Shown here: positions 20,054-32,290 of the stretch, in pieces
Numbering within the stretch: position 1 is the first letter of the stretch
Layout: each line of letters opens with the position of its first letter
Source: Pseudotabrizicola sp.
GTDB taxonomy: Bacteria > Pseudomonadota > Alphaproteobacteria > Rhodobacterales > Rhodobacteraceae
Reading direction: 5' to 3'
Assembly (NCBI RefSeq): GCF_030684215.1
Contig: NZ_JAUXOV010000076.1
Span: forward strand, 62,001 to 126,000
DNA: 64,000 nt
The notes under the pieces: model-generated
The model's input: only the letters and a program-made list of their open reading frames with translations
Database searches by the model: none
Told to the model about the DNA's origin: nothing
Made by a program: the position numbers and the translations under genes

Positions 20054-20582
20054 CGCCGAAGGGCTCCTTTTGCGTGGTGCCATTGGTGACAGGTTTGCTG
20101 GCGAAATTGAAATAGTGACGCAGACTTTCAGCTATGTGCTGCGCGTATGGGAGGTGAATCGGTGGTCGCATCGGCCTTTGCCCCTGCCGCAGCACCGCTG
20201 CCGCGCCGCGCGCAACCCCTTGGCGTCAGGGATCTATTCGCAATAATGCAACTATTAATCAATGTGTTACATGGCTCCGCCGTCCCGGTATGGCGCGGCG
20301 GAACGGGCTGGGGCCACGCGCCTTGCCCGTGGGGCGGTGGGGCAAGGCGTGGGCGCGATCCGCCGGGACCGCAGCCACCGCCGATTCGGACGCTGCGCTG
20401 CGGCATGCGGCGCGGGCGCGCAGTATTCAAGTGCATACAATTTACGAATCTCGTGCGTTTCCAGACGGATTTCGTGCCCCTCTCCGTTGACCCCGGTGGG
20501 GGAGCAGAGTAAACGAGTTCGCAAGAGTGCAAGCGGATCGCCAGCATCCGCAGCTCGCAGTCGCCAGCCGAAGGAGCATCTC
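20054..20582. promoter_or_regulatory. 529-bp intergenic region upstream of nuoA
   Basis: The divergent gap between the acyl-CoA dehydrogenase gene and nuoA holds no convincing gene. Open frames on both strands here have low-complexity Pro/Arg/Gly composition and no family-like motif. An AT-rich stretch at about 20228-20275 and a second at 20433-20475 are the likely control regions for the two directions. Confidence 0.45.
20487..20515 (+). promoter_or_regulatory. Candidate nuo operon promoter
   Basis: TTGACC (20487-20492) and TAAACG (20510-20515) are separated by 17 bases, about 70 bases before the nuoA GTG. The -10 match is imperfect, so this is a candidate only. Confidence 0.35.
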
Positions 20583-21472
<890 letters not shown>

Positions 21473-21483
21473 GGAGAAACGAC

Positions 21484-22128
21484 ATGTCCGAAGCCCAGAT
21501 ATCGGAAGCCTTGCAAGAGCTTGCCGCCCATATCGAGATGAAGCGGCCCAATGATGTGCTGTCCAGCCGGATCGCTTTTGGCGAACTGACGCTGGAGGTG
21601 GTCGCCAGCCATATCGCTGATTTCAGCGATTTTTTGCGTGTCGATGCGGGCTGCCGGTTTTCGTCGTTGGTGGATATTACTGCGGTTGATCACCCGACCC
21701 GCGAGCGTCGCTTCGATGTGGTCTATCATTTCCTGTCGATGTATCAAAACCACCGCATCCGCATCAAGATCGCGGTGGGGGAACAGGACATGGTGCCGTC
21801 ACTGGTTGATGTGTACCCTAGTGCCAACTGGTTTGAACGCGAAGTGTTCGACATGTTCGGCATCCTGTTTTCCGGCCACCCTGACCTGCGCCGCATCCTG
21901 ACCGATTACGGTTTCCGCGGCCATCCGCTGCGCAAGGATTTCCCCACCACCGGCTACACCGAAGTGCGCTACGATGAGGCGCAAAAGCGCGTGGTCTATG
22001 AGCCGGTCAATCTGGTGCAGGAATACCGGCAGTTTGATTTCATGTCGCCATGGGAAGGCGCGCAATACGTGCTGCCCGGTGACGACAAGGCGGGGGCACC
22101 GCGCAAGTCTGCCGAGGGGGGCAAATAG
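21484..22128 (+). CDS. nuoC: NADH-quinone oxidoreductase subunit C
   Basis: The 214-residue peripheral-arm subunit (30-kDa family) carries the signature ERELFDMFGI-like [37 protein letters not shown]. It follows nuoB by 11 bp with GAGGAGAAACGAC before the ATG. Separate nuoC and nuoD genes are the usual alphaproteobacterial arrangement. Its last codons (GAGGGGGGCAAATAG) also act as the ribosome site for the next gene, a sulfotransferase instead of nuoD. Confidence 0.95.
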
Positions 22129-23076
22129 GTGTCTGCACCTGTGCCAAACCACCTCTTTTGCGTTGGTGCGCAAAAGGCAGGGACCACTTGGCTTTACGAC
22201 TATTTTTCCGCGCATCCGCAGGTGCATGTTCCGCCAGTGAAGGAAATGCACTATTTCAACGTGTTGCATGATCCCAATCAGGCAGGATTCTATCATGCGC
22301 GACGCAATGCCGTGCAAAGCATGCTCGAAACGGCAGGTGATGGGGCGGAAAATCGGGGCGCGCAACCGGGAGATCCGGTGTCGCTTAATACGGTGCTTGA
22401 CCTTGTAAAGATGCACGAATCCAAAGAGTCAGACCACGCCGCTTACCGTCGGTTTATGGTGAAGGACGCCGGGGCGTCGCCTTGGGTGGCCGATATCACG
22501 CCAGCCTATTGCACCTTGGGGCCAGGGGTTATGACCTCGATGCTTCAGGCTTTCCCCGGTGCCAAAATGATCTACATTCTGCGCGATCCGGTCAGCCGTC
22601 TGTGGTCCCAGGTGCAGATGGAACTGCGCAGGCGCAGGGCCAGTGGTCAGGTTCAGTATACCGCAGAGATGCTGATTTCCTCACTGCTTGAGGGGCATGA
22701 AGATCATATGCTCGCGCGGAGCAATTATCCTGGCACTTTGTTTGCGCTTGGGCATTTGCCCAAGGATCGTGTCAAATACATGTTTTACGAGACTTTGTTC
22801 TCGGATAACGCCATGCTGGAACTGTGTAATTTCCTGAATATCGGCTTCAAGCCGGGAGATTACAGCCGCCGTGTCAGGGCCGGAGTCGAGGCAAAAATGA
22901 CGGAAGACCAAATAATGATCTTTCGCTGGCTGCTGGCTTCGGTTTATCGACGCGTCTACGATGCGTTTGGCAACGCGGTGCCACGCGGTTGGGATTTGTC
23001 AGCAATGGATGCAAAGCGTCCGAGTTTTCTTGATGTGTCGAAAATCGGGCCTCACGTCATGAGCAAGGCAGGATAA
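22129..23076 (+). CDS. PAPS-dependent sulfotransferase embedded in the nuo operon
   Basis: This 315-residue Sulfotransfer_1/3-type protein starts at the GTG at 22129, immediately after the nuoC TAG. The PAPS 5'-phosphosulfate loop is visible at residues 13-21 (GAQKAGTTW) and the 3'-phosphate motif at 152-160 (RDPVSRLWS) after MIYI. No signal peptide is evident, so it should be cytosolic. It stops one base before nuoD, and its 3' end supplies the AGGA ribosome site of nuoD. By eye its codons are more A/T-rich than those of neighbouring nuo genes, suggesting later arrival. The acceptor (lipid, sugar, amine or protein) is unknown. No direct link to complex I is established. Confidence 0.88.
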
Positions 23077-23077
23077 T

Positions 23078-24313
23078 ATGGACGGCGATATCCGCAAGAA
23101 CACCTATGACGACGGTTCGACCGACTTTGAGACGGGCGAGCAGAAAATCCGCAATTTTAACATCAACTTCGGCCCGCAACACCCTGCGGCCCATGGCGTT
23201 TTGCGCTTGGTGCTGGAGCTTGACGGCGAGATTGTCGAACGCTGCGATCCGCATATTGGCCTGCTGCACCGTGGCACCGAAAAGCTGATGGAAAGCCGCA
23301 CCTATCTGCAAAACCTGCCCTATTTCGACCGGCTCGACTATGTGGCGCCGATGAATCAGGAACATGCATGGTGTTTGGCGATAGAACGGCTGACCGGAAC
23401 AGTGGTTCCGCGCCGTGCATCGCTGATCCGGGTGCTTTATTCCGAGATTGGTCGGGTGCTGAACCACCTGCTGAACGTGACCACGCAAGCCATGGACGTG
23501 GGGGCGCTGACGCCGCCGCTCTGGGGTTTTGAGGAACGTGAAAAGCTGATGGTGTTCTATGAGCGGGCCTGTGGTGCCCGCCTGCACGCCGCCTATTTTC
23601 GCCCCGGTGGCGTTCACGTTGATCTGCCCGACCGGCTGGTGGAAGATATCGACCAATGGGCGGTGGAATTCCCGCGTGTTCTGGATGACATCGACACACT
23701 TCTGACCGAAAACCGCATTTTCAAGCAGCGCAATGCCGACATCGGTATCGTGACAGAGGAAGATATCCTGACATGGGGCTACTCTGGTGTCATGGTGCGC
23801 GGCTCTGGTCTGGCATGGGATTTGCGCCGCAGCCAACCTTATGAATGCTATGACGAATTTGACTTCAAGATTCCGATTGGCAAGAACGGCGACTGCTATG
23901 ACCGCTATCTGTGCCGCATGCAGGAAATGCGCGAGTCGACCAGCATCATCCGGCAGGCCTGCGCGAAACTGCGGGTGGAAAAGGGCGATGTGCTGGCCCG
24001 TGGCAAGATCACGCCGCCCAAGCGTGGCGAGATGAAGACCAGCATGGAAGCCTTGATCCACCATTTCAAACTTTACACCGAAGGGTTCCACGTGCCCGCT
24101 GGTGAGGTTTACGCATCGGTTGAGGCTCCCAAGGGTGAATTCGGCGTCTATCTGATGGCCGACGGTACCAACAAACCCTACCGCGCCAAGATCCGCGCGC
24201 CGGGATTTCTGCACCTGCAATCCATGGATTATATCTGCAAGGGGCATCAGCTTGCTGACGTCTCTGCCATCATCGGCACGATGGACGTCGTGTTCGGGGA
24301 GATCGACCGCTAA
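23078..24313 (+). CDS. nuoD: NADH-quinone oxidoreductase subunit D
   Basis: The 411-residue 49-kDa-type subunit forms much of the quinone pocket. Family signatures are [36 protein letters not shown] and the conserved [16 protein letters not shown], with DVVFGEIDR at the end. The ATG is one base after the sulfotransferase stop (GGATAATATG). The TAA overlaps nuoE by one base. Confidence 0.96.
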
Positions 24314-25479
24314 TGCTGCGCCGCCTTCACAAAGACCAGCCTGCCTCGTTTGAATTCACGCCCGCAAACCTTGCTTGGGCGCAGGGGCAGATTTCCAAAT
24401 ACCCCGAGGGGCGGCAGGCCTCTGCCATCATCCCGCTTTTGTGGCGCGCTCAGGAACAGCATGGCTGGCTGACGCGTCCGGCGATTGAATATGTGGCGGG
24501 TATGCTGGGTATGGCCTATATCCGCGCGCTGGAAGTGGCGACATTCTACTTCATGTTCCAGCTGCAACCGGTTGGGTCAATTGCCAATATCCAAATATGC
24601 GGCACAACGTCGTGCATGATCTGCGGTGCCGAAGACCTGATTGCGGTGTGTCAGGAACTGATTGCCAAGCAGCCACATACAGTGTCGTCAGATGGCAAAT
24701 TCTCGTGGGAAGAGGTCGAATGTCTGGGTGCGTGCAGCAATGCGCCGATGGCCCAGATCGGCAAGGATTACTACGAAGATTTGACGCCTGAAAAGCTGCG
24801 CGACCTGATCGCGCGGTTCAGCGCTGGCGAAGTGCCGGTTCCCGGCCCGCAAAACGGGCGTTACGCGTCCGAGCCGCTGACCGGGCTGACCTCGCTCAAA
24901 GACCATGAGGCGGGGCGCAAACCCTATAACGCCAGCGCGCAGCTTGCGGTGGATATCGGCGAGACGGTCAAGCGGATTGATGGCACCGAAGTGCCGCTGA
25001 CCACGCCATGGCTGGGCAAACCGAAAGCGCCGAAAAGTGGTGCCAAGTTCAGCGAACCCAAACCGGGTGCGGGCCGTCCGGCGGATGATACTGGCGTGAC
25101 GGTGCAGGAAGCGCCAGCGCAGTCAAAGGGCAAGCCAGTGTCAAAGGATGACCCGGCAAGCACCCCAGCCGAAGCCAGCGCTGTGGCATCCGAAGCGGTG
25201 AAGCCCAAGGGGTTGACAGCTGCGCGCGGTGGGGCCGCTGACAACCTCAAAGAAATTGAGGGCATTGGCCCTGTGCTGGAAAAGCTGTGCCACGAGCTTG
25301 GCTTTTTCCACTTTGACCAGATTGCTGGCTGGTCCGGGGCAGATATCGCCTGGATGGACCAGAATCTGAAAGGGTTCCGTGGCCGTGTGACCCGCGACAA
25401 ATGGGTGCCACAGGCCAAGATCATCGTGACCGAAGGGCTGGAGGCATTCCGCATCCGGGCCAAGACCAACGACTACTAA
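24313..25479 (+). CDS. nuoE: NADH-quinone oxidoreductase subunit E with C-terminal HhH-like extension
   Basis: The protein has 388 residues, more than twice the roughly 165-residue core. Residues 1-170 are the thioredoxin-like NuoE with [2Fe-2S] cluster N1a ligands in [11 protein letters not shown] and [11 protein letters not shown] Pro/Ala/Lys-rich linker (about 200-305) follows. A C-terminal domain (about 308-388) contains [20 protein letters not shown] and a WVPQA segment, resembling helix-hairpin-helix domains seen fused to NuoE-like proteins in Rhodobacteraceae. The linker looks unstructured. The extension's role is unknown; it may stabilise or anchor the N-module. Confidence 0.93.
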
Positions 25480-27019: not shown

Positions 27020-27285
27020 TGGGCAAGAGCGCCGCCCTTTCCCTGACGCTGGCGCTTGGCGCTTGTGTGCAACCAGCCCCGCAAGGTGCTGGTCAGGGTG
27101 CGGCTGCGCCGTCTGTTGCCCCGTTGCGGGTGACCAACAATGGCCAACCCTTCCGCCAGTATGATGGGGCCGCCGCGCGCCGGGTGGCCGATGCCACCTA
27201 TGCCGCGCAGGGCCGCCGCCTGCGCCCAGGTGTCTATGACCGGTTTGAGGCGGGTACATGGGTTTATGTCGGGGGGTGCGTCTGA
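27019..27285 (+). CDS. Small putative lipoprotein in the nuo operon
   Basis: The 88-residue protein begins [27 protein letters not shown] is a lipobox with the cysteine at residue 14, so it should be a lipidated periplasmic protein. The rest is short and ends with PGVYDRFEAGTWVYVGGCV; I recognise no known family. The ATG overlaps the nuoF TGA. Together with the lipoprotein at 29922 it suggests a periplasmic side component near complex I, but that is inference. Being coupled to nuoF argues that it is a real gene. Confidence 0.65.
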   Translation: MGKSAALSLTLALGACVQPAPQGAGQGAAAPSVAPLRVTNNGQPFRQYDGAAARRVADATYAAQGRRLRPGVYDRFEAGTWVYVGGCV

Positions 27286-27361
27286 TGCGCTATCCGATAA
27301 CAGCCCAAGTTTGCGTGAACACCCGGTCTTGTCATCGCCTATCAGCGCAAACAGCGCCTAT

Positions 27362-27386
27362 CTCCTTGGCATGGAATGCCAAGGAG
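27362..27386 (+). promoter_or_regulatory. Perfect hairpin hiding the Shine-Dalgarno of the DUF5333-like gene
   Basis: An 11-bp perfect inverted repeat (CTCCTTGGCAT / ATGCCAAGGAG) has only a GGA loop. Its 3' arm contains the AAGGAG (27381-27386) that precedes the ATG at 27393. There is no T-tract, so it is not a terminator. The structure would block ribosome binding unless melted, consistent with translational control, temperature sensing or a need for an unfolding factor. Confidence 0.7.
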
Positions 27387-27392
27387 GCCCTG

Positions 27393-27794
27393 ATGAAACT
27401 GATCCCGATGACACTTGCCGCCCTGATGCTTGCCGTGCCCGCCTTTGCGCTGGTGCCGATCAATCAGGAAAAGCGGATCAACGACACGCTGCGCAGCGGG
27501 TTTATTGCCGATGCGATTGCGGACAATTGCCCGACGATGCAGCCGCGCAAGTTGCGCGCGCTGAACGAACTTTTGAAGCTGCGCGATTATGCTTTGTCGC
27601 AGGGCTATAGCGCTGCCGAAGTGCGGGCCTTTGTGGAAAGCAAGTCTGAAAAAGCGCGTGGGCGCGCCGAAGCTGCGGCTTGGCTGGCGTCCAAAGGGGC
27701 GGTTCCGGGCAAGGCTGACGCTTATTGCGCGGCGGGCACGGAAGAGATCGCGCGCGGCAGTCTTGTCGGCGCATTGCTGAGGGTAACACGGTGA
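27393..27794 (+). CDS. DUF5333-like secreted protein
   Basis: The 133-residue protein has a signal peptide (MKLIPMTLAALMLAVPAFA, cleavage around 19-20). A helical mature part follows: QEKRINDTLRSGFIADAIADNCPTM, SAAEVRAFVESKSEKARGRAEA and a final Cys-containing KADAYCAAGTEEIARGSLVG. Proteins of this family recur in the nuo operons of Rhodobacteraceae. The ATG at 27393 is chosen over longer frames because of AAGGAG at 27381 and the signal peptide. Translation may be limited by the hairpin over that site. Likely periplasmic; function unknown. Confidence 0.8.
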   Translation: MKLIPMTLAALMLAVPAFALVPINQEKRINDTLRSGFIADAIADNCPTMQPRKLRALNELLKLRDYALSQGYSAAEVRAFVESKSEKARGRAEAAAWLASKGAVPGKADAYCAAGTEEIARGSLVGALLRVTR

Positions 27795-29921: not shown

Positions 29922-30323
29922 ATGCCCCACGCGCCCGTTCTTGCCAGCCTGACCGCCGCTTTCGTGGCGCTGTCGGCTTGTGCCGAGACTGGGGCCGTGT
30001 CACAGGGCGACTTCGTGCCATCGTATCAGGGCATTCAGACCGTGCTGTTGCAAGACGACATGGTCAGCTTCCGCGTCGCCCTTCAGGGTGGGCGCGGAAA
30101 TGATGATGTTGAAGCATATGGCCGCTGTGCGGCTGCACAATACGCGCTGATCCGTGGATTTGGGTTTGCGCGCCATGTGCGGACCACAGTGGCGAAGACA
30201 GGAAATACCTGGCGGGGGGACGCGGTCTATCTGATCTCGGCCGCACTGCCACCCGGACTCCGCACGATCGACGCCGAAGTGACGGTGCGTGATTGTGGGG
30301 CGCTTGGGATACCGACGATTTGA
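29922..30323 (+). CDS. Putative lipoprotein between nuoG and nuoH
   Basis: The 133-residue protein begins [29 protein letters not shown] is a lipobox with the cysteine at residue 20. The mature part has [38 protein letters not shown] and a Cys-containing end, and looks like a small alpha/beta domain. It begins three bases after the nuoG stop, so co-expression with complex I is clear. I recognise no named family; many Rhodobacteraceae nuo operons have a small reading frame here. Confidence 0.7.
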
Positions 30324-31379: not shown

Positions 31380-31874
31380 ATGGCTAACATCGACTGGAAC
31401 CGCGCGACCCGGTATTTCCTGTTACAGGATTTTCTCAAGGGGTTTGCCCTGGGGATGAAGTACTTCTTCGCACCTAAGGCCACGCTGAACTATCCGCATG
31501 AAAAAGGGCCGCTGTCGCCACGATTCCGTGGCGAACACGCGCTACGCCGCTATCCCAATGGCGAAGAACGCTGCATCGCCTGCAAGCTGTGCGAGGCGGT
31601 ATGCCCGGCCCAAGCCATTACCATCGATGCCGAACCGCGTGACGATGGCAGCAGGCGAACCACCCGCTATGACATCGACATGACCAAATGCATCTATTGC
31701 GGTTTTTGTCAGGAAGCCTGCCCAGTTGATGCCATAGTCGAAGGCCCGAACTTTGAGTTCAGCACAGAAACCCGCGAGGAGTTGTTCTATGACAAGGACA
31801 AACTGCTTGATAATGGCGCGCGTTGGGAGGCGGAAATTGCCCGCAATCTCGAACTCGACGCACCGTATCGGTGA
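31380..31874 (+). CDS. nuoI: NADH-quinone oxidoreductase subunit I
   Basis: The 164-residue 8Fe ferredoxin subunit has two clusters, N6a and N6b: [16 protein letters not shown] and [16 protein letters not shown]. The N-terminus anchors to the membrane arm ([28 protein letters not shown]). The ATG at 31380 (MANIDW) is preferred, and ATG at 31377 is an alternative. Its TGA overlaps the next gene's start. Confidence 0.95.
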
Positions 31875-32290
31875 TGGCCATGAATGACGCTTACACCAAG
31901 ATGCTGCAACAGATGATGGAAAGCGGGCAGGAAATGCTGCGCTCTTTCAATCCAGGGGCCGAGGGCATCAAGATGGGGGGGATGGAAAAGCTGTTCCCCA
32001 CCATGCCAAAAGACATGATGGAGATGTGGTTCGGCAAGACCTTCAACCGCGAAGGGCTGGATGCCAAAACCCGCCTGCTGGTCACCATTGCCGCGCTGAC
32101 CGTTCTGGGCGCGCAAGCCGAGCCGCAGTTGAAACTGTCGGTGCGCCATGCGCTTGCCGCCGGGGCCACACAGCGCGAAATCGCCGAGGTGATCTGGCAG
32201 ATGAGCATGTTCGGCGGCCTGCCGGCCATGCAAAAAGCGCTGGAAATTGCGCAAAGCGTGTTTGCCGATACTGAGGGGACTGACGAATGA
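31874..32290 (+). CDS. Carboxymuconolactone decarboxylase-like protein in the nuo operon
   Basis: The 138-residue protein has an AhpD/CMD-type helical core, with [57 protein letters not shown]. No CxxC pair is present, so it is not an AhpD-type peroxidase partner. Genes of this class occur at this position in related nuo operons. It overlaps nuoI and nuoJ (TGATG and ATGA), showing tight coupling. An assembly or quinone-related function is speculation. Confidence 0.85.

Follow-up and report, generated by a model that had tools for sequence, protein, structure and literature searches.

A sulfotransferase gene lodged between nuoC and nuoD in Pseudotabrizicola sp. and its recurrence at the same junction in Rhodobacteraceae

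Unidentified, non-core reading frames are known within the nuo/nqo operons of Alphaproteobacteria, for example in Paracoccus, and the gene described here resembles them in being a non-core gene inside the operon. It differs in that a sulfotransferase in the gap between nuoC and nuoD was not met in our literature search, which covered open-licence papers. Among the described enzymes, the closest are the bacterial sulfotransferases of the Sulfotransfer_3 family (PF13469), such as 3rnl, a bacterial sulfotransferase with unstated substrate. These have the same domain, donor-site motifs and length as the protein studied here; a difference lies in the proteins encoded in the nuoC-nuoD gap (hereafter the slot proteins), which, compared with one another in pairs, are 37% identical in the median (5th-95th percentile 28-49). 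A profile of the 29 proteins aligned here, the window's included, matches 3rnl at 6e-23 and, much more remotely (1e-11 to 1e-12), the heparan sulfate 3-O-sulfotransferases (1t8t, 1zrh, 1vkj), which we take to be animal enzymes; their core aligns and a Glu in the KElhYfd/NEVHFFD segment is shared, but they act on another substrate. NoeE, a glycan-acting rhizobial sulfotransferase, has a model that matches one of 29 proteins aligned here (7e-4) and does not match ours. NoeE and LpsS, which belong to rhizobial surface or signal chemistry, are like our protein alphaproteobacterial sulfotransferases, and both act on glycans; LpsS is assigned to the Stf0 family (PMC12445080). Sulfotransfer_3-type enzymes and extra nuo frames are therefore both known, and what is new relative to the literature searched is a recurrent slot for sulfotransferases.

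The window, i.e. the whole stretch of 64,000 nucleotides of Pseudotabrizicola sp. that was analysed, carries the gene on the plus strand at 22129-23076 (GTG start, 315 aa), annotated as a PAPS-dependent enzyme of the Sulfotransfer_3 type. The GTG directly adjoins the stop codon (TAG, 22126-22128) of nuoC (21484-22128, plus strand), and a single base (T, 23077) separates the gene from the ATG at 23078 of nuoD (23078-24313, plus strand). The packing given in the preliminary description, with no spacer behind nuoC and one base before nuoD, agrees with these coordinates, and its proposal that the gene takes its ribosome site from the nuoC tail and supplies that of nuoD is supported by two likely sites on the plus strand. 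The first, GAGGGGGG (22114-22121), lies in the nuoC tail, 7 nt 5' of the GTG, and the second, AAGGCAGGA (23065-23073), in the tail of the sulfotransferase gene, ahead of nuoD. NuoC and NuoD of the window are ordinary; compared with most members of the genus, nuoC has a tail extended by 8 residues, and immediately 5' of the sulfotransferase gene this tail is unlike that of the genus mates. A search for sigma-70-like promoters in 20400-24600 gave no matches against 1.9 expected by chance, which is weak evidence. The layout suggests that the gene would be co-transcribed and coupled with nuo. Other non-core frames are found elsewhere in the nuo operon of the window, at 27258-27794 (nuoF-nuoG), 29922-30323 (nuoG-nuoH) and 31823-32290 (nuoI-nuoJ). 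Across 93 loci of the family, the median length of the gap between nuoF and nuoG is 1288 bases.

The protein matched the Sulfotransfer_3 profile with 58.8 bits (cut-off 27) and Sulfotransfer_1 with 38.8 bits (cut-off 22), and no NCBIfam model names it. Both motifs pointed out in the preliminary description were found, and their conservation was read from the alignment of 29 proteins, the window's among them. GAQKAGTTW (residues 13-21, 22165-22191, plus strand), which we take to be the 5'-phosphosulfate-binding loop, has G13, G18, T19 and W21 invariant and K16 nearly so. In RDPVSRLWS (residues 152-160, 22582-22608, plus strand), whose Arg and Ser presumably bind the 3'-phosphate, R152, D153, P154, R157 and S160 are invariant in 29/29. 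KEMHYF (residues 38-43, 22240-22257, plus strand) contains E39, conserved in at least 90% of the proteins, which in the profile alignment pairs with the Glu of the NEVHFFD segment of the heparan-sulfate 3-O-sulfotransferases, the residue that we assume to be their catalytic base. The genome also contains a match to APS kinase, the maker of PAPS (G000:C79, 209.5 bits). An AlphaFold2 model built from two sequences, that of the window protein plus the first of the L034 pieces, reached a pLDDT of 38. Judging from its motifs, the gene encodes a PAPS-type sulfotransferase in which the donor-site motifs and the likely catalytic Glu are intact, and PAPS would be its sulfate donor.

The nuo operons of Rhodobacteraceae were surveyed, a check that the preliminary description had proposed, and a sulfotransferase at the same site turned out to be common. 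Coordinates of sulfotransferase and nuoC matches were compared in 394 genomes of the family, and sulfotransferase matches directly behind nuoC were seen. We examined the 150 best loci of the 377 genomes with nuoC, those with the nuoC most like the window's; without the window's genome, a genus mate (G003) and three loci lacking nuoD, 145 loci of other genera remained. In one of the three (L082) the contig breaks off within a sulfotransferase gene. The gap holds a recognisable sulfotransferase in 58/145 of these other genera with nuoC most like the window's (L150, with the gene in two pieces, is counted as a carrier), while 86/145 have nuoC and nuoD without one and a single further locus has a fragment. 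The latter (L060, G351), left outside the 58, is a frame of 118 residues with weak sulfotransferase similarity that may be the remnant of a lost gene. Together with 15 loci of the own genus there are 160 loci with nuoC and nuoD, and a gap match in 60 of them (the window, the 58 recognisable genes and the 118-aa fragment).

The 60 ORF matches of the 58 carriers are all on the nuo strand. For 40 of the 52 measurable cases, the distance between their stop and the closest nuoD start in frame is between -20 and +30 nt (18 overlap by one base), a measure that, by using the nearest start, favours closeness; gap lengths were measured from the ends of protein alignments. Among 95 nuo regions longer than 17 kb, 33 loci contained 35 sulfotransferase ORF matches, 34 of them between nuoC and nuoD, and the other junctions covered, from nuoA to nuoL, had none, though several have large gaps too, apart from a single gene between nuoB and nuoC (L181, G085). 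Along the same lines, the sulfotransferase is flanked by nuoC and nuoD in 30/30 of the best loci of an order-level search, whose genera overlap with the 58/145 count and 11 of which are species of one genus (g294). At the level of the class, a sulfotransferase match was present in 29 of 385 genomes, 26 of these 29 lying outside the family, and none of 27 loci outside the family had nuoB, C, D or E beside the sulfotransferase within 1.5-kb flanks.

The slot members do not form one clade in the sulfotransferase trees, in which deep branches are weakly supported, and most of the slot proteins fall into large neighbouring groups. Two tandem sulfotransferases of different subtypes share the same gap in L200/L005 (G389) and in L123 (G380). 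Within genus g294 the slot sulfotransferases are, by their substitution pattern, under purifying selection, with a median dN/dS of 0.13 (53/55 pairs from 11 genomes, dS near saturation). Their median dN is 0.21, versus 0.03-0.04 for nuoC and nuoD.

The sulfotransferase is the commonest gap tenant in this sample of 160 and has several companions, which were sought with single queries (E 1e-3) in the 160 nuoC-nuoD gaps. A gene for a small two-TM protein was present in 40/160, a Lumazine_bd_2/NTF2-like protein in 7/160, a GFA-domain protein in 6/160 and an FlK-like thioesterase in 4/160, at times together with the sulfotransferase; 52/160 gaps are shorter than 100 bases and contain none of these tenants. 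Since several types of gene are found in the gap, we consider the nuoC-nuoD junction a passenger slot. The two-TM gene accompanies 13/60 sulfotransferase carriers and occurs in 27/100 gaps without sulfotransferase. Its product has about 60 residues and two hydrophobic stretches (e.g. in L135, L146 and L196), and the one example scanned had no Pfam match. Long ORFs hinted at a fusion of this protein with the sulfotransferase, a possibility that was rejected because the two are in different frames in L081. In several genus mates (L036-L044) the nuoC-nuoD gap contains a mini-frame, about 9 codons long, whose end overlaps the nuoD start as TGATG, and in L034 a mini-frame resembling the start of nuoD precedes the sulfotransferase.

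A lower GC content than that of the nuo genes had been noticed by eye in the preliminary description. This holds in comparison with nuoB to nuoE, both in GC (0.542 vs 0.574-0.607) and in GC3 (0.604 vs 0.694-0.757), but not with nuoA and nuoK, which are lower still in total GC. Codon use was compared as suggested. In GC3 and in codon-adaptation score (0.527, leave-one-out) the sulfotransferase gene ranks lowest among 24 hand-picked genes of the region, and it is again the lowest in a machine-chosen set of 43 ORFs that includes some wrong-strand ORFs. The native nuoA is nearly as atypical (0.533), which weakens the argument, so that composition agrees with a transfer and is not decisive.

As for the substrate, the window gene itself sits in nuo and not next to genes of capsule synthesis or export, and the clues come from its relatives. 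Five proteins of the family encoded outside the slot (L010, L023, L202, L205 and L208) fall among the slot proteins in the sulfotransferase tree. Three of them (L010, L023 and L202) have a KpsE-like gene at a distance of 0.7-2.3 kb and are adjoined by KpsE/KpsT-like or sugar genes (names given by eye), whereas for L205, placed weakly as the off-slot protein nearest to the window subtype, and for L208 the 5.8 kb in view contain no capsule genes. In L202 (2391-4772, minus strand) a frame of 794 residues combines an alpha/beta-hydrolase-like part, recognised by eye, with a sulfotransferase, and is adjoined by capsule-export-like genes. More widely, 10/28 off-slot matches were within 20 kb of a KpsE-like gene and 18/28 were not (counted by hand, with no comparison with chance); these 28 are the placed matches in genomes that were also searched for KpsE, some of them fragments, and the 10 include the second sulfotransferase of the window's genome, about 9 kb from a KpsE-like gene. 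Three genus mates have distant sulfotransferases (27-28%) outside the slot, each with a KpsE-like gene about 18 kb away. All these KpsE-like matches are below the cut-off of the model and they are nearly universal (80/80 and 71/74 genomes, 0 above cut-off). Two or more of them were found in 44/58 carriers vs 53/86 others (p 0.10), which does not separate the two sets; the tallies were made by hand and some matches may be pieces of one gene. APS kinase, present in 369/394 genomes of the family, cannot tell carriers from others for this very reason. The alignment with the heparan-sulfate enzymes, together with the three of five off-slot relatives beside capsule-export or sugar genes, favours a sugar of a surface polysaccharide as the most likely acceptor.

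Within its own genus the gene is exceptional. A nuoC match was present in 14/16 genomes (all but G009 and G010), and only the window's, 1/14, has a sulfotransferase in the gap; in the 13 others the end of the NuoC alignment lies 3 to 64 bases from nuoD. One of the genus genomes (G012) has a second nuo copy with another frame in the gap. In the NuoB/C/D and genus trees the window sits in a supported group whose other members are without the sulfotransferase (an initial tree of the genus built on nuoC and nuoD had little resolution, and the longer one was rooted by choice on G004/G007). Among the relatives found, the nearest occupy the slot of an uncultured Paracoccus MAG (52-54%) and that of G389, where two sulfotransferases stand in tandem and the nuoD-side one is 41-43% identical to the window protein. 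A mixture-model tree unites these sulfotransferases with 99/98 support, but in the NuoB/C/D tree the same three genomes do not group. Such a conflict, from a gene-tree comparison of the kind suggested in the preliminary description, favours arrival by transfer; against it, sliding identity gave no sign of an imported flank in nuoC or nuoD. Presence of the sulfotransferase changes 33 times on the NuoB/C/D tree, and at least 16 times when only the changes forced by starred branches are counted; both figures apply to a set into which 15 loci were brought for the very reason that they carry the gene. Of the earlier suggestion of a fixed cargo gene, the cargo half is favoured, and fixation is contradicted by the 1/14 genus genomes and these repeated changes. 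The window copy is likely a recent arrival, and its nearest kin suggest a route: it would have come from another genus of the family in which this subtype already occupied the nuoC-nuoD gap, and recombination in the conserved nuo flanks is a plausible way of entry. Carriage by a mobile element was considered separately and is unsupported: there was no phage match, and the relatives in plasmid records (15, of which 14 predicted non-mobilizable and 1 conjugative) were all below 60% identity.

The explanation that we favour, and hold to be probable with some reserve, is that of a polysaccharide-sulfating enzyme in a recurrent nuoC-nuoD slot, recently arrived from another genus. A cytoplasmic enzyme would transfer sulfate from PAPS onto a hydroxyl group, most likely of a sugar in a capsule-type precursor of a surface polysaccharide. 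The nuoC-nuoD junction of the family would have repeatedly taken up sulfotransferases and other small genes, as passengers oriented like the operon and set directly against nuoD, a placement proposed to give steady expression at the nuo level without breaking that of nuoD. The arrival could be contested if the family ancestor had possessed a slot sulfotransferase that was lost many times and kept in the window's genome. The large neighbouring groups that include most slot proteins, the tandem pairs of two subtypes in G389 and G380, the lack of an imported flank in nuoC or nuoD and the atypical codon use shared by nuoA all fit such an old inheritance. We nevertheless think it rather unlikely, as several separate losses would be needed within the genus alone (on a tree rooted by choice) and the window, the Paracoccus MAG and G389 are grouped together by their sulfotransferases but not by their Nuo proteins. 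A chance insertion without function, which the solitary occurrence among 14 genus genomes and the atypical composition might suggest, appears quite improbable given the full-length frame with K16, E39, R152 and S160 intact, the recurrence of this subtype between nuoC and nuoD in two unrelated genera and the purifying selection seen among the slot relatives of another genus. The preliminary description had named as signs of such an insertion a gene confined to this strain, with its own promoter and a lost PAPS site; since the gap sulfotransferase is common in the family, this picture does not hold.

Other readings would tie the enzyme to its neighbours in the operon. Sulfation of a quinone or a membrane lipid, which would link respiration to sulfation, draws on the gene's place among those of an enzyme that uses quinone, on the two-TM gene that shares the slot in 13/60 carriers and on the sulfated menaquinone of mycobacteria, which is made by a sulfotransferase. 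But the sequence gives no hint of a lipid, 27/100 gaps lacking the sulfotransferase have the two-TM gene as well, and the closest solved kin are 3rnl, of unstated substrate, and the heparan-sulfate enzymes; we regard this reading as improbable. Still less credible, indeed very improbable, is that the enzyme modifies complex I itself (e.g. a residue of NuoC or NuoD during synthesis) and that the slot keeps it with its target, even though the gene abuts nuoC and nuoD and prefers this junction over the others. Also in favour of this reading, the 49-kDa/NuoD homologue is known to carry a conserved Arg methylation, Paracoccus denitrificans included (PMC3750175). The 86/145 other genera and 13/14 genus genomes with nuoC and nuoD and no sulfotransferase argue against it, as does the faster change of the sulfotransferase relative to nuoC and nuoD. 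A covariation scan of 4956 Nuo columns (difference above 0.4 between carriers and others) found 15/17 strongly differing residue-column pairs commoner in non-carriers; those commoner in carriers were His at NuoL 686 (15/22 vs 11/57) and Cys at NuoM 103 (14/21 vs 12/55), and no Tyr, Ser, Thr or Lys was gained in carriers in any of these columns. The differences are taken as mostly tree structure, and the scan lent no clear support to the link between respiration and sulfation that had been suggested for this gene. A role as complex I subunit or assembly factor is disfavoured by the gene's absence from most of the genera and genus genomes examined.

Returning to the passenger slot, a core respiratory operon is a seemingly poor place for a passenger, and yet one junction of it holds sulfotransferases repeatedly. 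More speculatively, and we put this forward as a doubtful extension, the junction may be a natural exchange slot whose genes pass from genus to genus and are re-lodged by recombination in the nuo flanks, with the amount of a sulfated glycan, quinone or lipid tied to the expression of the respiratory chain. The gain and loss between close relatives offers a natural test of how core operons accept cargo without loss of function. The slot also points to an uncharacterised set of sulfotransferases with a predictable address, open to expression and assay.
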